A stretch of 17,078 nt of DNA from Thermodesulfatator sp. (lineage in GTDB: Bacteria; Desulfobacterota; Thermodesulfobacteria; Thermodesulfobacteriales; Thermodesulfobacteriaceae), in the NCBI GenBank assembly GCA_026993045.1, contig JALWWR010000116.1:1-17078 (forward strand), in the 5' to 3' direction. This document shows positions 514-13,587 of the stretch, piece after piece. The notes below the pieces were generated by a model that searched no databases, was not told where the DNA came from, and was given only the letters and a program-made list of their open reading frames with translations. The position numbers and the translations under genes are program-made. Each line of letters opens with the position of its first letter. Positions within the stretch are counted from its first letter, which is position 1.

Positions 514-2553
514 ATGGTTTCTTCCGAACATCATCACCATGCTCATCACGCTCCCGGCTCTCATAAAACTCACGCCCACGGATCCCACATTTCCCATGGT
601 GATCATCATGGCGGACACTCCCACCACGCTCACATGATAGAGGACTTTAAGCGCCGCTTCTGGGTCTCCCTCTTCCTCACCCTTCCCATCCTCTTCCTTT
701 CCCCGATGATAAGAAAGCTTCTCGGGCTTTCGGCCCCGGCCTTTCCCGGCGACCGCTATCTCCTCTTCGGGCTTTCCTCCGGGGTCTATTTTTACGGGGG
801 CTGGCCCTTTCTCAAAGGGCTTTTCTCCGAGCTTCGCACCCGCCGTCCGGGGATGATGACCCTCATCGCGGTGGCCATCACCACGGCTTACGGTTATAGC
901 TCGCTGGTGACCTTCGGGCTTCCGGGAAAGGTCTTCTTCTGGGAGCTTGCCACCCTGATTGACATCATGCTCCTTGGGCACTGGATTGAGATGCGCTCGG
1001 TACTCGGGGCCTCCCGGGCCCTTGAGGAGCTTGCCCGCCTCATGCCCTCAACGGCTCACCGGCTCCTTCCAAACGGCAAAACCGAAGAGGTTCCTCTTGC
1101 GGATCTGCGCCCCGGAGACCGGGTGCTGGTGCGCCCGGGGGAGAAGATTCCGGCCGACGGCCGGGTGCTGGAGGGGCAGAGCGCGGTAAACGAGGCCGTG
1201 GTGACCGGGGAGTCCCGCCCGGTGGAAAAGAAGCCCGGGGATGAGGTCATCGGCGGGGCCATAAACGGGGAGGGCTCCTTGGTGGTGGAGATCACCCGCA
1301 CCGGGGCGGAGTCCTTTCTTTCCCAGGTCATTGAGTTGGTGCGCCAGGCCCAGGAAAGCAAATCCCGCACCCAGGATCTCGCCAACCGGGCGGCCTTCTG
1401 GCTCACCCTGATCGCCCTCTCCGGCGGGGCCGTCACCTTCCTTATCTGGTGGGCCTTAATGCGCAGGGATCTGGCCTTTGCCCTGGAGCGCACGGTAACG
1501 GTGATGGTCATCACCTGCCCCCATGCCCTGGGGCTTGCCGTGCCCTTGGTGGTGGCGGTCTCCACGGCCCTTGCGGCCAAGCGAGGGCTTCTCATTCGCA
1601 ACCGGGCGGCCTTTGAGCGGGCCCGAAACCTCACCGCGGTGGTCTTTGACAAGACCGGAACCCTTACGGAGGGCCGTTTCGGGGTAACCCGGGTCCTTTC
1701 CTGGGAGGGTCTTTCCCCGGAGGAAGTCCTGCGGCTTGCCGCTTCGGTAGAGACCCATTCCGAACACCCCATCGCCCGGGCCGTGGCCGAGGCCTCTTCC
1801 GAGAAGGACCCGGTGGAAGACTTTAAGGCCCTTCCCGGCCGCGGGGCCCGGGCCAGGGTCTCCGGCCGGGAGGTCCTGGTAGTAAGTCCGGGCTATCTCC
1901 GGGAAAAGGGGTTAAACCCTCCGGAAGAGGCCCTTAAGCTTTCGGCCCAGGGGCAGACGGTGATCTTCGTCCTGGTTGAGGGCCGGCTCGTCGGGGCCAT
2001 CGGTCTTTCCGACCGGGTGCGGCCGGAATCGCGCTCGGCCATAAAGGCCCTTAAGGATCGGGGTATCAGATGTTTCATGCTCACCGGGGATAACGCCCGG
2101 GTGGCCCGGGCGGTGGCCGAGGAACTGGGCCTGGATGAATTCTTCGCCGAGGTCCTGCCGCAAGAAAAGGCCCAAAAGATCCGCGAGGTCAAGGCCCGGG
2201 GCGAGATCGTGGCCATGACCGGCGACGGAGTGAACGACGCCCCGGCCTTAGCCGAAGCGGATGTGGGCATTGCCATCGGGGCCGGAACCGAAGTGGCCAT
2301 TGAGACCGCGGACATCGTTCTGGTGCGCAACAACCCTGAGGATGTGGTGACCATCATTGATCTGGCCCGGGCCACCTACCGCAAGATGCTCCAGAATCTC
2401 TTCTGGGCCACGGGGTACAACGCGGTGGCCATTCCCCTGGCCGCAGGGGTCCTTTACAAATACGGGGTGCTTTTGAGCCCGGCTGTGGGGGCGGTGCTCA
2501 TGTCGCTGAGCACGGTGATCGTGGCCTTAAATGCCCGTCTCCTTAAGGTTTAA
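514..2553 (+). CDS. copB: Copper-exporting P1B-type ATPase, CopB-like (CPH class)
   Basis: This is a 679-residue heavy-metal P-type ATPase of the inner membrane, using ATP to move copper or silver out of the cytoplasm. The first 40 residues hold 17 His (HHHH at 6-9, then many HxH and HH), replacing the usual CxxC domain. Further motifs are actuator TGES at 231-234, the membrane metal site CPH at 335-337, phosphorylation loop DKTGT at 379-383, the HP motif at 418-419, TGDN at 524-527 and GDGVNDAP at 570-577. A YN pair in the next membrane helix (635-636) and MSLST (663-667) fit the P1B-3/CopB class. That class is linked to Cu(II)/Ag(I) rather than the CPC Cu(I) class. Ribosome site GGGAGG at 504-509 supports the ATG at 514. 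The multicopper oxidase follows 12 bases downstream. The symbol means the P-type ATPase CopB, not the outer-membrane CopB. Confidence 0.93.
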
Positions 2554-2565
2554 GGGGGCAAGAAG

Positions 2566-4704
2566 ATGAAAAAGGCTCTTCTCCTTGCCCTGGGAGTCAT
2601 CCTTCTTTGGAGCGTTTGGGCTGCGGCTCGGGTCCGGGAATATCACCTGGTACTTGAGGAGCGCCCGGTCACCATCCGGGGACGCACCATCAAGGCTATG
2701 ACCATAAACGGTCAGATCCCCGGCCCCACTCTTTACTTTGAAGAAGGGGATCTGGCCCGCATTGTGGTGGAAAACCGGATGCCAGAGGAAAGCTCCATCC
2801 ACTGGCACGGAGTCCTGGTGCCCCCGGAGATGGACGGAGTTCCTTATGTGAGTTTCCCGCCCATTGAGCCTGGGACCACCTTCACTTACGAATTCCGCAT
2901 TCGGCAAAGCGGCACCTACTGGTACCACTCGCACACCGGCCTTCAGGAGCAGAGAGGGGTTTACGGGGCCATAGTGATTCGTCCGAAGAAAGAGCGCTTT
3001 CCCGTAGACAGGGACTATGTGGTGGTCCTTTCGGACTGGACCTATCAGAATCCCGACGAGATCCTTCGCACTCTTAAGGCCGGCCGTGAATGGTACAACA
3101 TCAAGAAGGGCACGGCTCAGAGTCTTTTAGGGGCTTTCAAGGTCGGCATGGTGAAACATTTCTTCAAACGTGAACTTTTGCGCATGCCTCCCATGGACCT
3201 TTCAGACATTGCCTACGACGCTTTTCTTATTAATGGTAAACCCGAGGACCACCTTCCCGCCCGTCCCGGAGAAAAGATTCGTTTGCGGATCATAAATGCG
3301 GCGGCCGGGACCAACTTTTACGTGGAGTTTGCGGGCGGTCCCCTGACCATAGTTTCTGCCGACGGCCAGGAAGTACAACCCGTAAAACTCAAGCGATTTC
3401 TGATGGTCATTGCCGAGACCTACGACGTGATCCTTACGGTCCCGGAAGGGGGAGCCTTTGAGTTTCGGGCCACGGCCCAGGACAATTCCGGTCAGGCCTC
3501 GCTCTGGATAGGCAAGGGGCCCAGACACCTGGCCCCGGATATTCCGCCTCCCAATCTTTATCACACCATGGGGAAGGTGACCCTTAAGTCCCTTCTGGCG
3601 GTAAAACCGGAGTCGGCCATGGGGATGTCCGATGCGGCGGTAAAAGCCGGAAAGTTCGACCGGGCGGGGATGATGCCGGGCATGAAGATGGGGCACCGAA
3701 AAATGGTCTTCCATTCCAAATGGGCCCTTGACGGGATGGACCCCCGCCGGCCCTGGCCTCCTTATCGCTTCCTGCGGGCCTTAAAGCCCACCTCTCCTCC
3801 GCCGGGAAAGCCCGTGCGGATCATCCGCCTGACCCTGGACGGGGACATGGAACGCTATGTCTGGTTCATGGGCAAGAAGGCCCTTTCGGAAAGCGATGTC
3901 ATCCGCATCCGGAAGGGAGAGATCGTCCGCATTATCATGGTCAATCGCACCATGATGCACCATCCCATGCATCTTCACGGCCATTTCTTCCGGGTCTTAA
4001 ACGGCCAGGGCCCTTATGCGCCCTGGAAACACACCGTGGACGTGGCTCCTATGAGCACCACGGTGATTGAATTTCCGGCCAACGAGAAGGGAGACTGGTT
4101 CTTTCACTGCCACATCCTTTACCATCTTAAGAGCGGAATGGCCCGGGTGGTGCACTACGAAGGGTATTCCCCTCCGCCGGCGGTGAAAAAGGTACGGCCC
4201 CTGCTCTATGAGGATCACTGGTACGCCTGGGCGGAAGCCACGCTGGCCACCAATATGAGCGAGGGATACCTGAATCTTTCAAGCACCCGGTGGAACTTAA
4301 GGGCGGTATGGGAGATAGGTTGGGAAGGGGTTCCGGAAAGCGAGTCGGAATGGGTCTTTCTGGCGGAACGCTATTTCAACCGTTTCTTTACCCTCTTTGT
4401 GGGTGCGGATCTTCTGGCCAACGAGGAGGATAAGACCCGGGGAGTGGCGGGTTTTACCTATCTTTTACCCCTTAATTTGAGGACCTATTTCTGGGTGGAT
4501 ACCGATGGCGGAACGCGCCTGGGCGTTGAAAAGCACCTGCCGCTTACTCCCAGGCTTTCCCTTGAAGGATATGTGGAGTACGACACCTGGGAGAAGTGGG
4601 AGGGGGAGATAGGTTTTAGTTACGTGCTCAATCGTCGACTAAGTTTCAGGGCCTTCTGGCACTCGGACTATTTCTGGGGGCTGGGGTTTAATCTCTGGTT
4701 TTAA
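2566..4704 (+). CDS. copA: CopA-like multicopper oxidase with C-terminal outer-membrane barrel-like domain
   Basis: This 712-residue protein has a Sec-type signal peptide (1-20) and three cupredoxin domains to about residue 535. All four copper-ligand motifs are present: HWH 79-81, HSH 121-123, HPMHLHGH 466-473 and HCHxxxH 514-520 with axial Met525. A Met/His segment (MMPGMKMGH, 369-377) matches the methionine-rich insert of CopA/PcoA and CueO enzymes, which oxidise Cu(I) in the periplasm. Residues about 545-712 are not cupredoxin. They show alternating aromatic strands, short polar turns and a final Phe, as in outer-membrane barrels, and occupy the place of the separate CopB protein in other operons. 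No twin-arginine motif is seen, unlike typical CopA. It is last in the copper operon, with a GGGGG ribosome site. Its stop overlaps the stop of the opposing kinase gene (TTAA at 4701-4704). The oxidase call is firm; the barrel is inferred from pattern. Confidence 0.92.
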   Translation: MKKALLLALGVILLWSVWAAARVREYHLVLEERPVTIRGRTIKAMTINGQIPGPTLYFEEGDLARIVVENRMPEESSIHWHGVLVPPEMDGVPYVSFPPIEPGTTFTYEFRIRQSGTYWYHSHTGLQEQRGVYGAIVIRPKKERFPVDRDYVVVLSDWTYQNPDEILRTLKAGREWYNIKKGTAQSLLGAFKVGMVKHFFKRELLRMPPMDLSDIAYDAFLINGKPEDHLPARPGEKIRLRIINAAAGTNFYVEFAGGPLTIVSADGQEVQPVKLKRFLMVIAETYDVILTVPEGGAFEFRATAQDNSGQASLWIGKGPRHLAPDIPPPNLYHTMGKVTLKSLLAVKPESAMGMSDAAVKAGKFDRAGMMPGMKMGHRKMVFHSKWALDGMDPRRPWPPYRFLRALKPTSPPPGKPVRIIRLTLDGDMERYVWFMGKKALSESDVIRIRKGEIVRIIMVNRTMMHHPMHLHGHFFRVLNGQGPYAPWKHTVDVAPMSTTVIEFPANEKGDWFFHCHILYHLKSGMARVVHYEGYSPPPAVKKVRPLLYEDHWYAWAEATLATNMSEGYLNLSSTRWNLRAVWEIGWEGVPESESEWVFLAERYFNRFFTLFVGADLLANEEDKTRGVAGFTYLLPLNLRTYFWVDTDGGTRLGVEKHLPLTPRLSLEGYVEYDTWEKWEGEIGFSYVLNRRLSFRAFWHSDYFWGLGFNLWF

Positions 4705-6479
4705 GGCGAGGGGTTTGCCTCTTGGGCGCAACGGAAGCCTACCTCCTCAAAGGCCTCCCAGGGCATGCGTTTTACTGGGGCCAAACCCAAGGTCTGCGAG
4801 GGTTCATGGAGTTTTAGACCGCTTATAAGGACGATCTCGGCCTCAGAGGAAGGAAGAACACTATTTTCCACCCATTCGCCGAAATGGGTGCTAAGCCCCC
4901 GGATCCCGAGGGCATTAGGTTTTAAGTCCATTACGCTTACCGGAAACTCAAAGTGCTTATAAAAATTTCTGGGGACTTCTAGTTGGAGGCCCTTTAACCC
5001 CCGGCCTTCAGTGACGGCGTAAAACCATTCCACTTTAGTGGGAAGTCTTTTTCCGTAATGTCTGGCATAGGCTCGGGCCCCAAGGGCCGTAACCCGCACC
5101 ACCGGACAAGAAGCGTGGATCGGATTTCGAATCAAGAACCTTCCTTCTTCATAGATGATGGGTTCGTAATTTTCACTGACTTTACCTAGATAAAGCCAGA
5201 CTTCGTTACGGTGTTTGACCACCCCGTTTTCCACCCGAATTTGGGAAGAGATCTCGTTGAGAAAGGTTACATATTGATGGTTGGTGACCGGGTGTTCGTC
5301 TAGATAAAAAGGCTTAAGGGTTACGGTTTGGGGCTTAGATTCTAAGAATCCCGGAGGGAGTTTTATCTTCCCTCCGGGAAGAAAGCGCATCACCGCTCCG
5401 TCTGAAGACACCTTTACCGAGGGAAAGTCGCGGGCTAGCTCAGGATAAAGCGTGAGTTGTACTTCCTGGTGTTGTCCGGCGCGCATCTTCTGCCAGAGAT
5501 AGTAAAAAGTCCCTCCCAAGACCAAAAGGACCACCGCGGAAGCCAGGATCAGCCAGAGGGGAGGCCTCAAGCGCACTGCCGAAGGGGGGATCTTTTCCCT
5601 TTTCTGAAGGGCCAGGGCCTCTCTCAGGGCTTCTTCCATCTCCTCTACGCTGGAAAAGCGCCGGTCTGGGTCCTCCTCGGTGGCCTGGCGGATGATGTGA
5701 TCTAGGGCCTTGAAGAAGGGCGTCGGAGTCTCCTTAAGACCTACCTGAGTAAAGGGGCGGGCCGAGGACGGAATCTTTCCCGCTACGGCTTCGAAAAGGA
5801 TCTTTCCCAGGGCGTAGATATCCGCCCGCTGATCAGTGCCCTTCAAATCTACAAACTGTTCCGGGGCCATGTAGGTCGGGGTGCCCTTTATCTCTAAGGA
5901 AGTGGTGATGGACTCGAGCTTTATGGAACGGGCCAGGCCGAAGTCCGCTATCTTGGGGATCTCCCCGTCAAGGAGAATGTTTTCGGGCTTAAGATCCCGG
6001 TGAAAGATGCCCATCTGGTGAATGGTCTTTACCCCTTCAAGCACCGGGAAGAAATATTTTTCAATCCAGGCCCGGGTCTCTTTTTCGGAGGGATAAAAGC
6101 CTTCCTCCCGCATGGTGCTCCGCAGGGTGCGGCCTGGTATATATTCCAGCACGATATATTCCAGCTCTACCGGACCCTCCGGGAGCTCCACCCGGGCCTT
6201 GTCGTAGTCGTAGATCTGGATCACGTTGGGATGCCGGATCTGGACCATAGTCTCTACTTCCTGGCGGAAACGACGCAGGGCGCCCTCCAGTTCCTCGGGA
6301 TCATCGATAAAGGTTTTGAGCCATTCCCGGGAAACGATCTTGAGGGCCACGTCCCTTTTGAGATTTATCTGATGGGCCCGGTAGACCTCGCCCATTCCAC
6401 CCCGGGCAATAAATTCCAAAATCACCCACTTTCCATTAAGAACCGTGCCTATGGGAAGCAGGGGCTGCTCTTTACCCAT
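4701..6479 (-). CDS. Transmembrane Ser/Thr protein kinase with extracytoplasmic FGE-sulfatase-like domain
   Basis: This is a Hanks-type (PknB-like) kinase of 592 residues. The kinase domain (about 10-290) has a glycine loop (GGMG, 27-30), Lys47, Glu74, the catalytic loop HRDLKPEN starting at 160, DFG 179-181 and APE 205-207, so it should be active. One membrane helix (about 308-329) leads to an outer region. Residues about 373-588 match the SUMF1/formylglycine-generating fold (FYLDEHPVTNHQY, GKRLPTKVEWFYA, GFR near the end). The RGGSW segment and the catalytic Cys pair of true enzymes are absent, so it is probably a binding or sensor domain. I chose the ATG at 6479 because AGGAG (6486-6490) sits six bases before it. 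The ATG at 6485 directly abuts that site. The start overlaps the PP2C gene by 8 bases, so the phosphatase and kinase form one transcript. Confidence 0.9.
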   Translation of the reverse strand: MGKEQPLLPIGTVLNGKWVILEFIARGGMGEVYRAHQINLKRDVALKIVSREWLKTFIDDPEELEGALRRFRQEVETMVQIRHPNVIQIYDYDKARVELPEGPVELEYIVLEYIPGRTLRSTMREEGFYPSEKETRAWIEKYFFPVLEGVKTIHQMGIFHRDLKPENILLDGEIPKIADFGLARSIKLESITTSLEIKGTPTYMAPEQFVDLKGTDQRADIYALGKILFEAVAGKIPSSARPFTQVGLKETPTPFFKALDHIIRQATEEDPDRRFSSVEEMEEALREALALQKREKIPPSAVRLRPPLWLILASAVVLLVLGGTFYYLWQKMRAGQHQEVQLTLYPELARDFPSVKVSSDGAVMRFLPGGKIKLPPGFLESKPQTVTLKPFYLDEHPVTNHQYVTFLNEISSQIRVENGVVKHRNEVWLYLGKVSENYEPIIYEEGRFLIRNPIHASCPVVRVTALGARAYARHYGKRLPTKVEWFYAVTEGRGLKGLQLEVPRNFYKHFEFPVSVMDLKPNALGIRGLSTHFGEWVENSVLPSSEAEIVLISGLKLHEPSQTLGLAPVKRMPWEAFEEVGFRCAQEANPSP

Positions 6480-7239
6480 TTCCATCTCCTACCTGAACTA
6501 CGATTACCGTCACGTTGTCCCGTCCTCCCCGCGCCAGAGCCGCCTCCACCAAGAGATCACACACCATGGGGAGAGGGTGGCTTAGAAGGATTTCTCGTAT
6601 CACACGGTGGGGAACCAGGTCATGGAGTCCATCAGTGGAAAGAAGAAAAAGGTCTCCAGGGCGGACATCAATGGCAAAGCAGGCCACCTTTTCATAGCCG
6701 CCGCCCAAGGCCTGGGTGAGAATGTGTCGGTAACGACTAGTGCGGGCCTCTTCCTCGGTCATCTCACCTTCTTCTACCATCTCTTGGACTAGGGTGTCAT
6801 CGGTGGTGAGTTGGGTTAGGCTGCCGGCTCGAAGAAGGTAAATGCGGCTGTCTCCCACATGGGCGACAAACCCGTTCCCTCCTCTGATCACCAGGGCTGA
6901 AAGAGTGGTCCCAAAGCCCTCGCTTTCCGGATGGGTTTCTTCGTAACGCAAAAGTTTCTTCTGGGCCTTTTCTACCGCTTGTTCGAGTCGCTTGAGGAGA
7001 GCTCGGGGATAGAGACGGTAAAGGAGCCTCTCTTTCAGACTCAAAGGGGTAAAATAACTTTCTTTCAAGGCTTCGCATACCAGGCGGCTTGCAAGGTCTC
7101 CAGCGGGGTGTCCGCCCATGCCGTCAGCCACAGCCCAAAGTCTTCCTAACGGAGAAGGCTCATCCACCACCAGATAGTGATCTTCGTTTCTTGGCCGGCG
7201 GAGTCCTACATCCGTGCGAACACAATATTTGGGAGGCAT
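6472..7239 (-). CDS. PP2C-family (PrpC/Stp-like) protein serine/threonine phosphatase
   Basis: This 255-residue cytoplasmic metal-dependent phosphatase has the full PP2C motif set: RPRNED (15-20), VADGMGGH (37-44), GTT (110-112), VGDSR (128-132), STDG (201-204) and GGRDN (238-242). The two-metal-site Asp residues Asp20, Asp39, Asp203 and Asp241 are all present, so it is probably active. It lies directly upstream of, and overlaps, the Ser/Thr kinase gene. Bacterial kinase-phosphatase pairs of this kind usually act on the same targets, and the phosphatase often reverses kinase autophosphorylation. No ribosome site is visible before the ATG, and a predicted -10 box lies only seven bases upstream, suggesting a leaderless transcript. 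Which cell process the pair controls cannot be read from the sequence. Confidence 0.95.
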   Translation of the reverse strand: MPPKYCVRTDVGLRRPRNEDHYLVVDEPSPLGRLWAVADGMGGHPAGDLASRLVCEALKESYFTPLSLKERLLYRLYPRALLKRLEQAVEKAQKKLLRYEETHPESEGFGTTLSALVIRGGNGFVAHVGDSRIYLLRAGSLTQLTTDDTLVQEMVEEGEMTEEEARTSRYRHILTQALGGGYEKVACFAIDVRPGDLFLLSTDGLHDLVPHRVIREILLSHPLPMVCDLLVEAALARGGRDNVTVIVVQVGDGNG

Positions 7240-7413: not shown

Positions 7414-7656
7414 ATGAAACTCAACCGTTTAGCTATCAGCGAAGAAGGTTTCATCTTTGATCCGGAGACTGGTAATAGTTACACCGTGAACGAGACCGGA
7501 TTAAAGGTCCTTAAGGCCCTGCGGGCCGGGCAGAGCCCTTCAGAGATTGCCGAGGCCTTGAGTGAAGAGTTCGAGATCTCGGTTCCAGAAGCCTTACGAG
7601 ATGTAGAGGAATTCTTAGAGAGCCTGAAGCGCTTTCGTCTTTGGGAGGAATCGTGA
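7414..7656 (+). CDS. PqqD-like small protein, probable RiPP recognition element (RRE)
   Basis: This 80-residue protein of the PqqD family (winged-helix fold) opens with the typical beta-hairpin (EEGFIFDPETGNSYTVNETG, about 10-29) and continues with helices (LKVLKALRAGQSPSEIAEAL; FEISVPEALRDVEEFLESL). Family members bind leader peptides of ribosomally made, modified peptides (RiPPs) and present them to enzymes; PQQ and lasso-peptide systems are known examples. No PQQ genes are present here. The gene starts a six-gene operon. Its stop (TGA, 7654-7656) overlaps the GTG start of the ATP-grasp gene, so the two are likely coupled. The ribosome site GGTGG (7406-7410) is weak and close to the ATG. 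The partner peptide may be the N-terminal extension of the decarboxylase two genes on; that link is my inference. Confidence 0.85.
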   Translation: MKLNRLAISEEGFIFDPETGNSYTVNETGLKVLKALRAGQSPSEIAEALSEEFEISVPEALRDVEEFLESLKRFRLWEES

Positions 7657-8681
7657 TTAAAGTGGCCGTCTCTGGAATCAATGCTGTAGACAATCCTGGC
7701 CCAGGTTTGGGGATTATAAAAGGATTGCGCCAAGGGAAGATTCCAGTAGCTCCTATAGGATTGGCCTATGACGCTATGGAGCCCGGAATCTATCTTGACC
7801 ACCTGGTGGAACGGGCTTACCTCATGCCATATCCTTCCGAAGGGGAAGCGCCTTTTTTAAACCGTTTGCTTTATATCAAAGAGAAGGAAGGCCTAGAGGT
7901 GGTCATTCCAGCCTTGGATGCCGAGCTTCCCCTTTTTATCGATTTGGAATCGAGACTTTCGGCTTACGGAATTAAGAGTTTTTTGCCCACCAAAGAACAA
8001 TTTCGTTTGCGTGCAAAAGACCGCTTGCAAGAAGTGGCCCGAAGAATCGGGATTAAGATCCCTCAAACTTTGGCCGTAACCTCGATAAAAGAGCTAGAAG
8101 AGGCCCTTTCCGAACTCTCTTTTCCGGTAATGATAAAGGGGCTCTTTTACAAGGCCCTTAAGGCCTACACTCCAGCCGAAGCCCAGCAGTATTTTTACTC
8201 TATTGCGGCCGAGTGGGGCTATCCGGTACTGGTGCAGGAAGTGGTGGAGGGAGAAGAGGTGAATGTGGTAGGAGTCGGAGATGGAGAAGGGGGACATTTT
8301 GGTCTCTTAGCTATTAAAAAGCTCTGGATTACAAGCTTAGGGAAGATCTGGACCGGGGTAACCATTACTCATTCGGGTCTTCTTAAGGCCGCGGAAGATT
8401 TTGTTAGGGCCTATGCCTGGCGAGGGGCCTTTGAATTGGAGGTCATCGCCCAGGACGAAGATCTTTACTTAGTAGAAATCAACCCCCGTTTTCCGGCCTG
8501 GATCTATTTCGCGGTAGGCGTGGGGATTAACCTTCCGGAACGGCTTTTAGCTGCGGCTCTGGGACAGGAACCTGAAAGAAGTTGGGACTATCCGGCTGGG
8601 AAGCTTTATATCCGTTTCACCGACGATCTGGTCACGGAACTAGAAGTCTTTCAGCACATGGTTACCCGAGGTGAGAGATGA
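7653..8681 (+). CDS. ATP-grasp carboxylate-amine ligase-like protein
   Basis: This 342-residue protein has ATP-grasp architecture. It has an N-terminal pre-ATP-grasp domain (1-115), an ATP-binding Lys in FPVMIKG (157-163), a hinge strand VLVQEVVEGEEV (192-203), and the metal/ATP motif ELEV...LVEINPRFPAW (261-283) with Glu274, Asn276 and Arg278. Such enzymes activate a carboxylate as an acyl-phosphate and join it to an amine or thiol; the substrate cannot be read here. The start is GTG at 7653: GGGAGGA (7643-7649) precedes it by 3 bases, and the product then begins MIKVAVSGIN as is usual for this fold. A TTG at 7641 would bury the ribosome site inside the gene. It overlaps both neighbours by 4 bases or fewer. 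Pairing with a PLP decarboxylase recalls BtrJ/BtrK of butirosin synthesis, where a ligase loads Glu on a carrier and the decarboxylase acts on it. That is analogy only. Confidence 0.88.
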   Translation: MIKVAVSGINAVDNPGPGLGIIKGLRQGKIPVAPIGLAYDAMEPGIYLDHLVERAYLMPYPSEGEAPFLNRLLYIKEKEGLEVVIPALDAELPLFIDLESRLSAYGIKSFLPTKEQFRLRAKDRLQEVARRIGIKIPQTLAVTSIKELEEALSELSFPVMIKGLFYKALKAYTPAEAQQYFYSIAAEWGYPVLVQEVVEGEEVNVVGVGDGEGGHFGLLAIKKLWITSLGKIWTGVTITHSGLLKAAEDFVRAYAWRGAFELEVIAQDEDLYLVEINPRFPAWIYFAVGVGINLPERLLAAALGQEPERSWDYPAGKLYIRFTDDLVTELEVFQHMVTRGER

Positions 8682-8758
8682 AAAAGCCCTATCAAAAACC
8701 CACCATTGTCAAACTCCAAATCGGTACCTTGCGGGAACAAAAGAGTGCCCTGGCGCAA
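8678..8758 (+). other. Leader-peptide-like N-terminal extension (YxxP) of the decarboxylase
   Basis: The first 27 residues lie outside the decarboxylase domain. They begin MKKPYQKPTIVKLQIG, with Tyr5, Pro8 and Ile10, then Gly16 and Leu18. Lasso-peptide leaders share Y-x2-P-x-(L/I), which is the part held by the PqqD-like recognition domain. A PqqD-like protein is encoded two genes upstream. Binding is inferred. The tail may instead be a simple N-terminal arm. Confidence 0.5.
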
Positions 8759-10018
8759 AGGGTGCGGTTTGAAATTGATGGAGTACCGGTAAAAGATCTT
8801 CTCCAAAAGTTTGGCTCTCCCCTCTTTGTTTTTTCGGAAAAGCGATTGCGGGAGCAATTTCGCTATGCGAAAAGACTCTTTGAGACCCATTATCCCCGGG
8901 TGGAATTCAGTTGGTCTTACAAAACTAACTATCTTGACGCTATCTGTCGGATCTTTCATCAAGAGGGGGCCACGGCGGAGGTGGTTTCGGAATTCGAATA
9001 CGAGAAGGCCCGCCGTTTAGGGGTGCCAGGAGAAAAGATCATCTTTAACGGGCCTTATAAACCTCGAACCATTCTAAAAAAGGCTGTAGAAGAAGGGGCT
9101 CGCATCCATGTAGATTCCATGGATGAGATTCTTGACCTAGAAGAGATAGCGAAGGAACTGGAGAGAAAGATTTCCATCGGAATCCGTCTCAACCTAGATA
9201 CTGGCATTTATCCCCGTTGGGATCGCTTCGGATTCAATCTGGAAAGTGGCGAGGCCCTCCAGGTGGTCCAGAGGATAGCAGCTGGCGGCCAGCTCGAAAT
9301 CGTAGGGCTTCATTGTCACCAGGGGACTTTTATCCTGGAACCAGCGGCCTACGGGCGGGCAGCCGAAAAACTTCTGGGCTTTGCTCAAAAGTTAGAAGAA
9401 GCCTTTGGCTGGACCATCGAATATCTAGATTTAGGTGGAGGTTTTCCCTCTCGTAATCGTTTGAAGGGGCTTTATCTTCCTCCCGAAGTAGCGGTCCCGC
9501 CCCTTTCGGAGTATGCGGAAAGTATAGCCAAAGCCCTCCTTTCAAACTTGAATTCTAGAGATTATCCCTTGCTCATTTTAGAAAGCGGTCGGGCCTTGGT
9601 GGACGAAGCGGGGTTTTTAATCACTACCGTGCAGGCGGTAAAACGTCTGCCTGACGGACGTCGAGCTTACGTACTGGATGCTGGCGTAAATTTGCTCTTC
9701 ACCGCTTTTTGGTATCATTTTCGGGTGGATTTGGGAGAGGAAGTGCTCGGGCCTCCGGAGCCTAGCGTCCTTTACGGGCCCCTTTGCATGAACATTGATG
9801 TGGTGGAAGAAGCCGTAAATCTCCCTCCTTTGAGCCGAGGAGTGCCCTTAGTCCTTTCACCAGTGGGGGCCTATAATGTGACCCAGTGGATGCAATTTAT
9901 CACCTATCGTCCCCGGGTGATCTTGATTACCGAAAAAGGAGAGGCCGAAGTCATTAGGGAAGCAGAAACGCTAGAAGACCTCGTGCGCCTGGAACGTGTA
10001 CCGGCCCATCTCCGATGA
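8678..10018 (+). CDS. PLP-dependent decarboxylase of the LysA/Orn-Arg-DAP group IV family, with leader-like N-terminus
   Basis: This 446-residue fold-type III PLP enzyme has the PLP Lys in SYKTN (Lys82), LHCHQGT (211-217), the phosphate-binding GGGF (253-256), ESGR (302-305), GPLC with Cys370 and Asp374 across the dimer, and GAY (397-399). These match diaminopimelate, arginine and related decarboxylases. True LysA usually reads CES.D at the Cys site; here it is CMNID, Met replacing the conserved Glu, so the substrate is probably not diaminopimelate. About 27 residues precede the usual start of the domain (VRFEIDG, from 29) and carry KKPYQKP, a YxxP motif like RiPP leaders. The ATG overlaps the ATP-grasp stop (ATGA), with GAGGTGA just upstream. 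Likely a dedicated enzyme of this operon's product. Annotating it as lysA would probably be wrong. Confidence 0.88.
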   Translation: MKKPYQKPTIVKLQIGTLREQKSALAQRVRFEIDGVPVKDLLQKFGSPLFVFSEKRLREQFRYAKRLFETHYPRVEFSWSYKTNYLDAICRIFHQEGATAEVVSEFEYEKARRLGVPGEKIIFNGPYKPRTILKKAVEEGARIHVDSMDEILDLEEIAKELERKISIGIRLNLDTGIYPRWDRFGFNLESGEALQVVQRIAAGGQLEIVGLHCHQGTFILEPAAYGRAAEKLLGFAQKLEEAFGWTIEYLDLGGGFPSRNRLKGLYLPPEVAVPPLSEYAESIAKALLSNLNSRDYPLLILESGRALVDEAGFLITTVQAVKRLPDGRRAYVLDAGVNLLFTAFWYHFRVDLGEEVLGPPEPSVLYGPLCMNIDVVEEAVNLPPLSRGVPLVLSPVGAYNVTQWMQFITYRPRVILITEKGEAEVIREAETLEDLVRLERVPAHLR

Positions 10019-12105
10019 AGGACCTGAAAGTCATCCCGCGCTCCATCTTAAATAGTTATTCCGGAGTCCTTTTCATTGCGCATCCTGGAGCAGGTTTAGT
10101 TATACTATTTCTCACCTTGATTTATCCCAACCTGGGGCTTTCGGCCCTGGTGTGCACCCTTTCAGCCTATACCTTTGCTCGCTTTCTGGGATTAAAAGAA
10201 GATTTTCTGCGGCTAGATTTTTATACTTACAATCCCCTATTGGTAGGCCTCTCTATTGGTTATTATTTCAAAATATGCTGTCTTAGTCTGCTCTTTTTAG
10301 TCTTAATGGGTATCTTTACCTTTGTTCTTACTTACGCCACCTATAACTTTTTTTCTTATTATCTACGTCTTCCCATTTTGAGTCTCCCCTTTGTTGCAGG
10401 CAGTCTGCTGGCGGCTCTGGCTTCTTATAAATATTCTAACCTTTTTGTGGTCAGCCTTTACCCTCGTTTCCAGCTCCCAGCCTGGGAGTTTCCGATTCCT
10501 CTGGCAGGCTTTTTTAAGGCTTTGGGAGCCATATTTTTCCTCCCCTATCCCCTAGTAGGCCTGATCCTTTTCCTTTTATTACTTTGGTTCTCCCCTATTC
10601 TGGGATTTTTGGCCCTCGCAGGCTATATATTTGGGAGCCTCTTGGCGGCTCTTTTTGTAGGCTCCTTAGAGGCCTCTTTTTCCCACTTGGGACATTTTAA
10701 TTTCGTTCTTATCGCGATGGCTCTCGGCGGGGTCTTCCTTTTACCTTCGCTACGAAGTTACCTCTTAGCTTTAGTGGCCGTAGGAGTGGCCTCACCTCTA
10801 AGCGAGGCCTCGCAGGTCTTCTGGCAGAAATTTGGTCTTCCGGCCTTTGCCTTGCCTTTTAATTTGGTGACCCTGCTTTTTCTTTACTCCTTGAGACTGG
10901 CGGGATACCCCAGGCTTGCCTTTTATTATCGGGGGACTCCGGAAAGGACCTTAGATTACCACTTGAGTTTAGACCGCCGTTTCCCCTTTGGCGTTTGGGT
11001 TATCGAATGGCCTTTAAGTGGCAAATGGACCGTATGGCAGGGTACTAACGGCAAATTTACCCATCAAGGGCCCTGGCGTTACGCCTTGGATTTTGTGGTT
11101 CAGGACGAAGCTGGTCGCACCTTTGAAGGCTCGGGGCGGGTATTGGAGGACTATTATGCCTACCGTAAGCCCGTATTTTCTCCGGTGAGCGGTCGGGTGG
11201 TGGAGCTGGTAGATGAACTCCCAGATGAACCTCCGGGATCCGCTAATACGGAGCGCCCCTGGGGAAATTACATCCTTATCTACGACTCCCGGGGTTTCTA
11301 TGTCTTAATGGCCCACTTTAGTCCTGGCACTTTCCAAGTTAAAAAGGGAGACTGGGTGGTGGAGGGCACCCTTTTAGGGCTTTGCGGGAGCTCGGGTTAC
11401 GCTCCCCAACCCCATCTCCACCTCCATATTCAAGGAAGTCCTGAGCTGGGGGCCCCTACTATGCCCTTTGTTTTTAAGGCCTATCAAAGCGAAGGGCGCT
11501 TCTGGGATTTCCAGCTGCCGAAAGAGGGAGAAACGGTGGAAGCCCTTCCCCCAGACAAGCGTCTAAAACAAAGCCTGAATTTCCTTTTAGGGGAAACCTT
11601 TTCTTATGAGATTTACCAAAATCAAACTTTAAAAGAGACCCTAGACTTGCGGGTGGAGATGGCTCCGGATGGCACCTTTTATCTTACGGAAGGGAAAGGA
11701 AAGCTCTATTTTGGATGGCGGGGAGGGGCTTTTTATTTTCTAAACTATCAAGGCCCCGGAAACTCGTCCCTAAAAGATCTATTCCTAGCGGCCCCTAAAA
11801 TTCCTTTAGGTTTAAGGGAAGGGCTTAAATGGGAAGATTTCCTACCTTTAGAGCTTTTGCTTCCTTGGTGGCAAAAGAACGCCTATCTCTTCTTAGGTTC
11901 TTTCTGGCCGCGCGCTTTAGATTTTAAAGGACAATATCAGGCCTTAAGCAAGTTTGACTTTGAGGGGCAGATCTGCTTTAATAAGAAGGAGGTCAAAACC
12001 CGGGTGAAACTTTGTCAGGTCAAGGGGTTTAAGGAAGTAGAGATCCAAAAGGGAAACCAAATTTACCTTTGGAGGAGGAAAGATCATGAAGAAAAAGGGG
12101 TTTAG
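10015..12105 (+). CDS. Urea-transporter-like membrane protein fused to an M23 (LytM-type) peptidase domain
   Basis: This 696-residue protein has three parts. Residues 1-300 form a polytopic membrane domain with two related halves: TYNPLLVGLSIG (71-82) and HFNFVLIAMALGG (227-239) match the paired signature of bacterial urea transporters, followed by GLPAFALPFNLVTLLFL (274-290). Residues about 335-475 match M23 metallopeptidases: H350xG..D359, H434, and PHLHLH with His467 and His469, so all zinc ligands seem present. Residues 500-696 are unrecognised, beta-rich and end in a charged tail. M23 enzymes cut peptidoglycan cross-links or act as scaffolds; UT channels pass urea and small amides. The start (ATG) overlaps the decarboxylase stop by 4 bases and has no ribosome site, so translation is coupled. 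UT proteins normally keep both ends in the cytoplasm, which would leave the peptidase on the wrong side; the topology is unclear. Confidence 0.85.
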   Translation: MKDLKVIPRSILNSYSGVLFIAHPGAGLVILFLTLIYPNLGLSALVCTLSAYTFARFLGLKEDFLRLDFYTYNPLLVGLSIGYYFKICCLSLLFLVLMGIFTFVLTYATYNFFSYYLRLPILSLPFVAGSLLAALASYKYSNLFVVSLYPRFQLPAWEFPIPLAGFFKALGAIFFLPYPLVGLILFLLLLWFSPILGFLALAGYIFGSLLAALFVGSLEASFSHLGHFNFVLIAMALGGVFLLPSLRSYLLALVAVGVASPLSEASQVFWQKFGLPAFALPFNLVTLLFLYSLRLAGYPRLAFYYRGTPERTLDYHLSLDRRFPFGVWVIEWPLSGKWTVWQGTNGKFTHQGPWRYALDFVVQDEAGRTFEGSGRVLEDYYAYRKPVFSPVSGRVVELVDELPDEPPGSANTERPWGNYILIYDSRGFYVLMAHFSPGTFQVKKGDWVVEGTLLGLCGSSGYAPQPHLHLHIQGSPELGAPTMPFVFKAYQSEGRFWDFQLPKEGETVEALPPDKRLKQSLNFLLGETFSYEIYQNQTLKETLDLRVEMAPDGTFYLTEGKGKLYFGWRGGAFYFLNYQGPGNSSLKDLFLAAPKIPLGLREGLKWEDFLPLELLLPWWQKNAYLFLGSFWPRALDFKGQYQALSKFDFEGQICFNKKEVKTRVKLCQVKGFKEVEIQKGNQIYLWRRKDHEEKGV

Positions 12106-12955
12106 TTTAGGGGTCTTGTTGCTTTTTCTCCTGGGCTTGGCTTGGTCCGGAGAGGCTGCGGGTCTCAAAAAGTACTTTTCTCTTTATGGGACTTATTTAA
12201 ACTATGGCAATTCCAAAGTTAAGGAGGACGGATACGCCGTTACTGCTTACGGCAGCCTTGGAGACGGGAAGCACCACGGGGTGGAAGTAGGTCTCTCTCA
12301 AATGCACTTGAATTATGAATCTGGTTATTCGGATCTGGATCAGACGGATTTCACCTTGGCCTACACCAATACCGGAAGCCTTCATCCCAACTTTAGTTTC
12401 CGTCTGGGAGGACATTATATCTCCAGTGACGACGATCTGACCGACGAAGGGCTGATCCTCGTGGGAGACCTTACCTATTTTGTTCCCTATCGTTGGAATG
12501 TGGGATTGGAAGCTTCCTATTCTGACTACGACGAACTGGTGGACTTTGAGGTCTTTCAGGCGGTTCCCCATGCGGGACGTTATTTTTCCTTCGCTAAGGG
12601 GAAAGTTTATCTTGAAGCCCGAGGCTATTACATCCATGTTAGTGATTCGGATCGGATAGGGATCTCTCTTGAGAATTATTATTCTTTAGAGGCTTCAGCC
12701 ACCTACCTTCAAGGCCCCTGGAGCCTCAAACTTTCAGGCTGGGCAGGACAACAGATCTTTGCGGTGAAGAACGCGGGTTTTGTAGTGTATAACCTCAGGG
12801 AAAAATACCGTGGGGGAATTACCGGGGAGATCACCTATCGGCTCCGACAATATCTTTTGGGAGCCAACCTTACCTGGAATACCTATAAAGAAGTGGAAAG
12901 CGATAACACGGTAAATCAGGCTATCTTTACCGTCTTTGTAGGTCTTAATTTCTAG
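12086..12955 (+). CDS. Outer-membrane beta-barrel protein of unknown function
   Basis: This 289-residue protein has a signal peptide (KKK, hydrophobic core to about residue 18, likely cut near SGEAA, 21-25). The rest is a run of amphipathic beta strands with aromatic girdles and acidic turns (for example 30-60, 95-125, 140-165 and 250-289), ending in VFVGLNF. A C-terminal Phe is the classic BAM assembly signal. I count roughly 10-12 possible strands. The product resembles YaiO-like barrels found beside TPR proteins, but I cannot assign it to a family with confidence. It overlaps the end of the UT-M23 gene by 20 bases. GGAGGAGG (12071-12078) just before the ATG is one of the strongest ribosome sites in the operon, so it may be made in higher amounts. 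The TPR gene follows after two bases. Confidence 0.75.
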   Translation: MKKKGFSLGVLLLFLLGLAWSGEAAGLKKYFSLYGTYLNYGNSKVKEDGYAVTAYGSLGDGKHHGVEVGLSQMHLNYESGYSDLDQTDFTLAYTNTGSLHPNFSFRLGGHYISSDDDLTDEGLILVGDLTYFVPYRWNVGLEASYSDYDELVDFEVFQAVPHAGRYFSFAKGKVYLEARGYYIHVSDSDRIGISLENYYSLEASATYLQGPWSLKLSGWAGQQIFAVKNAGFVVYNLREKYRGGITGEITYRLRQYLLGANLTWNTYKEVESDNTVNQAIFTVFVGLNF

Positions 12956-12957
12956 GG

Positions 12958-13587
12958 ATGTTTTGGCTGGCTTGGGTGGTGGTATGGCTTTGGGCCGGGG
13001 TCTCCCCGGCCCAAACTTTATCTTACCAAAAGCTCAAAGAGGCCTATCATCGTTCTTACGAATTTGAAAGGGAAGGGCAGTACGCTAAAAGCATTCAAGC
13101 CCTTATGCCGGTTTATCAGAAATACCCCCGGGGCTACACCATAAATCTTCGTCTGGGCTGGCTTTTTTATCTTTCGGGACGTTATCGCAACGCTATCGAG
13201 CATTACGAAAAGGCCGCGGCTGCCGCTCCAGGGTCGGTAGAGGCCCTCCTAGGCCTAAGCCTCCCTTATTTAGCCCAGAAGAATTGGTCTAAAGTAGAAA
13301 CCTTAATGTATCGGGTCCTCAAAATCGATTTTTACAACTACTATGGCAATTTGCGACTGGCCCAGGCCTTGAGGAACCAGAAAAAATATTACCAGGCCGA
13401 GGCGGTGTGTCGAAAAATGTTGGCCTTGTATCCTACGGATGTAAACTTTTTGGCCGAATTGGCCCTTAATCTCTACTACCGAAATCAAAAATCTGAGGCG
13501 AAAAAGTTGTTCCGAGACCTCTCGATCTTAGCCCCTCAAAACCCCCTTCCCCAAAAATTCCTTTCTGAACCCAAAAATCTTCGCTGA
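12958..13587 (+). CDS. Secreted TPR-repeat protein
   Basis: This 209-residue protein has a signal peptide (hydrophobic residues 2-17, likely cut after SPAQ or SPA) and about five tetratricopeptide repeats (roughly 25-58, 60-92, 94-126, 128-160 and 162-194). The repeats show their usual pattern: Gly-Tyr/Phe-Ala turns, Pro at repeat ends (YPRGY, APGSV, YPTDV, APQNP). TPR proteins are scaffolds, here in the periplasm. The gene starts two bases after the stop of the outer-membrane barrel gene and lacks a clear ribosome site, so the two are probably coupled and the proteins may bind each other. It is the last gene of the operon. The opposite-strand gene ends five bases downstream. A tiny CTTC-GCT-GAAG hairpin at the stop is too short to call a terminator. 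Confidence 0.85.
   Translation: MFWLAWVVVWLWAGVSPAQTLSYQKLKEAYHRSYEFEREGQYAKSIQALMPVYQKYPRGYTINLRLGWLFYLSGRYRNAIEHYEKAAAAAPGSVEALLGLSLPYLAQKNWSKVETLMYRVLKIDFYNYYGNLRLAQALRNQKKYYQAEAVCRKMLALYPTDVNFLAELALNLYYRNQKSEAKKLFRDLSILAPQNPLPQKFLSEPKNLR

Follow-up and report, generated by a model that had tools for sequence, protein, structure and literature searches.

What does a PqqD-like recognition protein bind when its gene is followed by those of a ligase and a decarboxylase? This question is raised by a 17,078-nucleotide contig of a Thermodesulfatator sp. (JALWWR010000116.1, our contig C116, in the 1.18-Mb and 65% complete assembly GCA_026993045.1), which is called the window below. Six genes, arranged head to tail on the + strand (7414-13587), encode there a PqqD-family protein of the RRE type (recognition element of ribosomally synthesized and post-translationally modified peptides, or RiPPs), an ATP-grasp ligase, a fold-III pyridoxal phosphate (PLP) decarboxylase, a urea-transporter-like membrane domain fused to an M23 peptidase domain (UT-M23), a putative outer-membrane β-barrel protein and a tetratricopeptide repeat (TPR) protein. 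The proposal put forward here is that the RRE would dock on the N-terminal tail of the decarboxylase itself and would join this enzyme to the ATP-grasp ligase, a reading to which we give a probability of about three in four.

The PqqD-like protein matched PF05402 with 58 bits (cut-off 23.4) and its best PDB matches were the lasso peptide B1 RREs TfuB1 (6jx3, 3.6e-6) and TbiB1 (5v1u, 1.1e-5). According to the accessible part of PMC13381572, discrete lasso RREs recognise a leader motif of the form [Y/W]xxPx[L/V/I/F/A], and TfuB1/FusB1, TbiB1 and the LPP RRE LppB, which our protein resembles in sequence, have a conserved Asn and a conserved Asp. In LppB, the same portion of that source describes a hydrogen bond of D70 to the leader Tyr and one of N33 to the backbone at Pro; complex formation is reduced by the D70A mutation and almost abolished by N33A. 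The alignment with TfuB1, combined with the accessible text of PMC13381572, places N26 and D63 of the window protein at the positions of N33 and D70.

A motif of this type was found on the adjacent decarboxylase. Apart from a match with a stop in genome G048 (residue 10), the matches to the LysA family in relatives never start before residue 26, and most start at 32-34. An extension of about 30 residues precedes the LysA-like part, and its majority form is MKKxYEKPxIxKxxxGxxNKFG. In the AlphaFold2 model of the decarboxylase, the mean pLDDT (predicted local distance difference test score) was 89, and residues 1-30, taken ten at a time, scored 49, 45 and 58, compatible with a tail that would be flexible or disordered on its own in front of an ordered core. 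The pattern [YFW]xxPx[ILVF] was present in 98/98 tail rows of a first set, which is redundant and was partly chosen through the tail pattern. For a second set, the class and the order of the genome carrying locus L096 (titled Bacteroidales) were sampled, 198 genomes each, with a decarboxylase cut-off of E <= 1e-90 that needs the enzyme core. The family was present in 50/198 genomes of the class and 83/198 of the order; 125 of the 135 matches were taken, genome G060 being counted in both class and order, and all 125 loci displayed [YF]xxPx[hydrophobic] (122 by script, 3 by eye). The Pro of the motif was invariant in 86/86 aligned tails. Farther along the tail, a Lys stands at +13 to +18 from the aromatic residue in each of 189 non-redundant rows, at +15 in 91% of them. 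Located about 15 residues past the aromatic, about where the core of a RiPP would lie, it may be a candidate carrier site.

If the RRE binds this tail, the aromatic residue and the Asp expected to contact it should vary together, and they do. The analysis was carried out on 189 PqqD-tail pairs, obtained from 199 by removal of 10 duplicates or near-duplicates (3 rows were read by eye). In the 159 Tyr tails, residue 63 of PqqD is Asp (148), Asn (10) or His (1); in the 27 Phe tails it is Tyr (15), Ser (10) or Ala (2), and in the 3 Trp tails it is always Asp. No exception was observed among the Tyr and Phe tails, the tallies are unchanged for 189 distinct PqqD-tail combinations, and Fisher's test, which ignores ancestry, gave 4e-33. 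When 391 variable columns of PqqD and ATP-grasp were compared with the aromatic in 185 rows, position 63 also ranked first, with a mutual information (MI) of 0.473, the runner-up being an ATP-grasp column at 0.237. N26 is an Asn in 186/189 rows (1 Ser, 2 gaps), the 27 Phe-tail rows included, and the RRE therefore stays constrained in those rows too. The motif and the coevolution together suggest that PqqD binds the tail, and Tyr/Asp, Tyr/Asn, Phe/Tyr and Phe/Ser are natural candidate docking pairs. Two decarboxylase copies were found in genome G334 (contigs C234 and C56), both with Tyr tails, accompanied by PqqD proteins with Asp63 (L211) and Asn63 (L225).

The distribution of the genes was analysed in 60 genomes (the present one and 59 relatives), with cut-offs of E <= 1e-6 for PqqD, E <= 1e-40 for ATP-grasp and E <= 4.6e-80 for the decarboxylase family (next match 7.7e-48). 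At these cut-offs the same 18 genomes have all three proteins and the other 42 have none; an earlier note on this DNA had named rare co-occurrence as the outcome that would contradict it, and the pattern is all-or-none. A scan of species genomes gave 189 decarboxylase relatives, of which the best 80 were kept as loci (L033-L112). Their record titles, mostly those of metagenome-assembled genomes and taken as given, name Aquificota, Campylobacterales, Bacteroidales, Ignavibacteriae, Gammaproteobacteria, Riflebacteria, Cloacimonadota, Muiribacteriota, Fibrobacter and others. Both PqqD and ATP-grasp precede the decarboxylase, on the same strand, in 59 of the 64 loci whose upstream sequence reaches at least 2.2 kb, and neither is found there in the remaining five (L053, L054, L056, L061, L077). 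UT-M23 directly follows the decarboxylase in 59 of the 67 loci having at least 2.3 kb downstream; a TPR gene is near the core in many loci and a barrel-like gene beside it in part of them. No PqqD-ATP-grasp gene fusion was detected in the 80 loci. The gene set thus recurs as a conserved biosynthetic unit. One locus (L043, 194-3846) has an extra PqqD and an incomplete ATP-grasp match preceding a complete set.

Gene order also bears on the purpose of docking, on which the evidence for binding is silent. PqqD could act as a regulatory or quality-control adaptor, binding the tail to control the activity, assembly or turnover of the decarboxylase and not to present it to the ATP-grasp ligase. Such a role would suit genome G066, where no ATP-grasp gene was seen within the 10-kb piece around PqqD (L322). 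We nevertheless hold it to be not very probable, considering the position of PqqD and ATP-grasp together upstream of the decarboxylase in the 59 loci, and genome G067, where PqqD and ATP-grasp are still neighbours (L323) with the decarboxylase on another contig, which points to teamwork of PqqD with the ligase. Since PqqD and ATP-grasp travel together, docking on the tail probably serves to offer the ligase either this tail or the decarboxylase as a whole.

Several observations weigh against the docking of the RRE on the tail and the complex that it would form. Retrieval of the 80 loci relied partly on MKKPYQKP as a tail pattern. PqqD and the decarboxylase are not linked in some genomes titled Aquificota (in those of L054 and L056, to which the PqqD pieces L322 and L323 belong, PqqD is on a different contig), and the complex would have to assemble there in trans. 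In the clade of the window the tail Lys has a shifted position (+17 in the window), and an enzyme that would release the product from a lysine carrier is not apparent. After background correction, the aromatic-D63 pair ranks second among all pairs of a tail position with a PqqD or ATP-grasp position. The top pair is formed by tail position +13, scored as Pro or other, and ATP-grasp residue 280, which belongs to the EINPRFPAW stretch; Pro goes with non-Phe, and 182/185 rows agree. On the tree of 185 rows these two positions change 5 and 3 times, and of three supported pairs one agrees and two do not differ; support is also weak in 50 rows. With too few independent changes, this coupling was set aside as evidence and remains a lead for a tail-ligase contact; that a weakly supported pair tops the ranking indicates that ancestry can give a high score. 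Finally, on well-supported branches each tree has only 2 independent switches of the aromatic and residue 63, both concordant (sign test p 0.5).

The match of Tyr with Asp and of Phe with other residues could thus reflect shared ancestry and not contact. This was examined on trees built without the tail or PqqD. The numbers of changes of the aromatic and of residue 63 were 8/8 (ATP-grasp, 130 rows), 5/5 (three proteins, 50 rows), 6/6 (decarboxylase core and UT, 50 rows) and 9/9 (ATP-grasp, 185 rows); both traits switch together on all best trees because their states are identical in every Tyr or Phe row. The small number of supported switches, and the comparable score reached by another tail position with an ATP-grasp column, are what this explanation has in its favour. 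It is improbable all the same, as ATP-grasp columns of the same ancestry reach only about half of the MI of D63 with the aromatic, and the contact is the one described for the solved RRE complex in the accessible part of PMC13381572. Moreover, the 50-row tree (midpoint root) passes from Tyr/Asp to Phe with Ser, Ala or Tyr, then again to Tyr in a well-supported group of 14, where residue 63 is mostly Asn, once His and once Asp (L217). Inside this group, at weak forks, Phe appears again with Ser (L280) or Ala (L212), and a Tyr/Asp row (L220) is weakly placed among Phe/Ser rows. Each time that Tyr reappears within Phe groups a polar residue accompanies it, with the reserve that several of the forks are weak.

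PqqD-family proteins usually serve RiPPs, and the NCBIfam lasso PqqD model matches the window protein at 49.8 bits, though under its cut-off of 70. PqqD could accordingly serve an unannotated precursor encoded elsewhere, the decarboxylase tail being incidental. A strict leader-plus-Lys pattern was searched in six frames of the 80 loci, a scope short of whole genomes; it misses 8/80 decarboxylase tails, so variant peptides could escape it. All 71 matches in long frames were at the start of the decarboxylase. Among 12 matches in short frames, one was the decarboxylase of L089, which is interrupted, and the others were unrelated by eye. No recurrent separate short peptide with the strict motif was thus found in these 80 loci, variant motifs and whole genomes being outside the search. 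With the motif on the decarboxylase's own tail and no recurrent free peptide, a classical RiPP is unlikely and keeps a slim chance; the covariation of the tail with D63 also speaks against it, as do the window PqqD being the sole PF05402 protein found in its 65%-complete genome and the single match to it in each of 12/12 other genomes. The earlier note had proposed a 'RiPP-like or carrier-based' pathway: its conserved unit of RRE, ligase and non-LysA decarboxylase is retained, and a classical RiPP version of it is unlikely, the leader-like motif being on the enzyme tail.

The nature of the decarboxylase was assessed next to solved enzymes. A profile of 58 members scored 309 bits with the N-citrylornithine decarboxylase FslC (7kh2), 230 with diaminopimelate (DAP) decarboxylases, 166 with D-ornithine/D-lysine decarboxylase and 154 and 153 with BtrK (7ru7 and 2j66). 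In the alignment with the DAP decarboxylase 1twi, the positions of an Arg, a Tyr and a Glu, which we take to be the residues recognising the distal centre of DAP, are occupied in our enzyme by T342, W345 and M371, without variation in 58/58 homologues. A lysA variant working in lysine biosynthesis is hardly credible, given these replacements and the presence of another gene of the LysA family in the same genome (contig C94; PF02784 at 207 bits, versus 121 for the window decarboxylase), despite a match of 222 bits to the NCBIfam lysA model, itself under the cut-off of 297.9. Because the second gene exists and the DAP-recognition residues are replaced, the window enzyme is classed by its sequence as not LysA, and the concern of the earlier note that it might be the genome's only lysA does not apply. 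It appears closer to an N-acyl-amino-acid enzyme than to a DAP decarboxylase. FslC, its closest solved relative, has in common with it a W.RFGF stretch and a Cys-Met in the active-site loop; the window enzyme is however far under the cut-off of the FslC model (207.5 versus 500 bits) and the rhizoferrin setting is that of FslC. The PLP lysine should be K82 by homology.

The ATP-grasp protein has PF15632 and PF02655 above cut-off, and its close relatives include Thermosulfurimonas. Its nearest PDB chains are carbamoyl-phosphate-synthetase-like (2pn1, 1a9x), and only weak homology was found to the ligases PylC (4ffl, 8.2e-6 with the family profile) and MfnD (0.013). Residues E263, E275, N277 and R279 are invariant in 44/44 sequences; the first three are presumably its acidic and Asn metal-binding residues. 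In a distant operon (L321, genome G059, 1560-4767), PqqD and the decarboxylase are separated by a pair of ATP-grasp genes in tandem (36% and 34% identity). In genome G030 (contig C1, 1278465-1279488), the ATP-grasp match is in two pieces, one with a stop, and the flanking PqqD and decarboxylase matches are without stops.

These observations are compatible with the following mechanism. The flexible N-terminal tail of the decarboxylase would be the target of the adjacent RRE and would be held by strand pairing and by pockets for the aromatic and the Pro, as in the RRE-leader complexes of lasso peptides. The decarboxylase would thereby be brought together with the ATP-grasp ligase in a single biosynthetic complex, as the coevolution suggests. 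By homology, the ligase should couple an amine with a carboxylate, and the decarboxylase should strip the alpha-carboxylate from the conjugate; a decarboxylated amino-acid derivative, as proposed in the earlier note, is a plausible product. The tail Lys would most likely be the acceptor site presented to the ligase, and this is the weakest step. From the gene order, UT-M23, the putative barrel and the TPR protein may have a part in transporting or using the product in the envelope. PylC ligates to the side-chain amine of lysine and BtrK decarboxylates a tethered amino acid. A self-carrier enzyme is a tentative possibility, in our opinion rather doubtful, in which the ligase would load an amino acid via its side-chain carboxylate on the tail Lys, the PLP domain would decarboxylate it on the arm and the product would be set free and sent outward. 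If this were true, the leader-bearing enzyme would take the place of an acyl or amino-group carrier protein by means of a genetic fusion, and would be something categorically new.

Compared with the lasso RREs and LppB, the motif is borne here by a 446-residue PLP enzyme and not by a short precursor, and Phe-for-Tyr variants occur in which the Asp is lost. BtrJ and BtrK of the butirosin pathway, as we understand it, are likewise an ATP-grasp enzyme and a LysA-fold decarboxylase, BtrK being homologous to ours; in contrast to that system, no acyl carrier protein was found among the 15 window proteins scanned (the rest of the genome was outside this search), and the decarboxylase has instead a leader-like tail bearing a conserved Lys. 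Pearlins, the products of PEARL pathways, are alike in that small molecules are built on a ribosomal carrier peptide, according to the accessible part of PMC9303977. Their carrier is loaded at the C-terminus by a tRNA-dependent ligase, whereas in the present system an enzyme bears the tag as a fusion. In the open-licence PMC literature, no report was found of an RRE with its target motif on a metabolic enzyme or of this cluster. The same literature yielded nothing for PqqD, ATP-grasp, urea transporter and decarboxylase together, for RRE with decarboxylase, ATP-grasp and PqqD, or for a gene cluster of urea transporter with peptidase M23; PqqD with diaminopimelate decarboxylase led to a single paper, which deals with metabolites of Pseudomonas that act against pathogens of potato, and the word 'decarboxylase' is absent from the accessible main text of PMC12710340, PMC7470986 and PMC8939145. 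Each protein family and the RRE-leader principle are already known; the cluster is apparently undescribed. RREs are taken as markers of RiPPs, and genome miners who meet this PqqD in many genomes would seek a precursor in vain. If the RRE binds the enzyme tail, RRE-leader docking would be a more general means of bringing metabolic enzymes together, and enzymes may likewise be the targets of other orphan RREs. The data suggest that the peptide-tagging trick organises ordinary small-molecule metabolism, and the cluster points to an as yet undescribed small molecule, which may have a connection with the cell envelope.

Table 1. Genes and sites of the six-gene operon in the window.
Feature	Position	Strand	Basis or remark
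PqqD-family RRE, discrete, 80 aa	7414..7656	+	PF05402
PqqD N26 codon	7489..7491	+	equated with LppB N33
PqqD D63 codon	7600..7602	+	equated with LppB D70
ATP-grasp ligase, GTG start	7653..8681	+	PF15632, PF02655
Fold-III PLP decarboxylase, 446 aa, with N-terminal tail	8678..10018	+	PF02784, PF00278
Leader-like tail of decarboxylase, residues 1-32	8678..8773	+	outside LysA-matching part; low pLDDT; conserved in homologues
YQKPTI, RRE-type motif, decarboxylase residues 5-10	8690..8707	+	motif conservation in homologues
Decarboxylase tail Lys22, +17 from Tyr; counterpart of NKFG lysine of most homologues	8741..8743	+	
Urea-transporter-like membrane domain fused to M23 peptidase domain (UT-M23)	10015..12105	+	PF03253 (201 bits), PF01551 (40 bits)
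Putative outer-membrane β-barrel protein	12086..12955	+	barrel inferred from sequence
TPR protein	12958..13587	+	PF14559 and other TPR models

Overlaps of 4 bases were observed between PqqD and ATP-grasp, ATP-grasp and decarboxylase (8678-8681), and decarboxylase and UT-M23 (10015-10018). The coupled trio described in the earlier note was borne out, by the Pfam matches too, and the coupled unit is of at least four genes, UT-M23 included; the leader-like tail motif, the UT-M23 fusion and the usual TPR and barrel-like genes had been missed. For ATP-grasp, the GTG at 7653 was taken as start, as favoured by alignments of homologues, instead of the TTG at 7641 in the mechanical list of open reading frames. 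A Pfam scan of the 15 window proteins revealed no radical SAM protein, lasso cyclase or lasso protease, carrier protein, YcaO or PQQ gene besides PqqD, which agrees with the earlier statement on radical SAM, cyclase and PQQ genes and distinguishes the locus from lasso systems. The putative barrel protein had no Pfam or NCBIfam match, and no window match was obtained with Rfam at gathering thresholds. In UT-M23, residues H350, D359, H434, H467 and H469 are invariant in 73/73 sequences and are presumed to serve in metal binding and catalysis by the M23 domain, which presumably lies outside the cytoplasm. Urea transport by the UT domain was considered and rejected: positions 17 and 172, mapped from DvUT, where we take them to be the urea-binding side chains, vary among homologues.

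Two-component regulators adjoin the cluster in two distant genomes (L068, 13909-15619; L110, 6236-7608), perhaps a sign of regulated expression. In the window, the operon is divergent from a pair of genes on the - strand (4701-7239), rare in the other loci, in which a Ser/Thr kinase fused to a formylglycine-generating-enzyme-like domain overlaps by 14 bases with a PP2C phosphatase gene. Beyond this pair, a metal island, probably for copper, is composed of a P-type ATPase (2566-4704), a multicopper oxidase (514-2553) and a Met-rich small exported-looking protein (84-467). The oxidase domains (within residues 34-530) are followed by about 180 residues resembling a segment of an outer-membrane barrel, and this protein could be an oxidase-barrel fusion.

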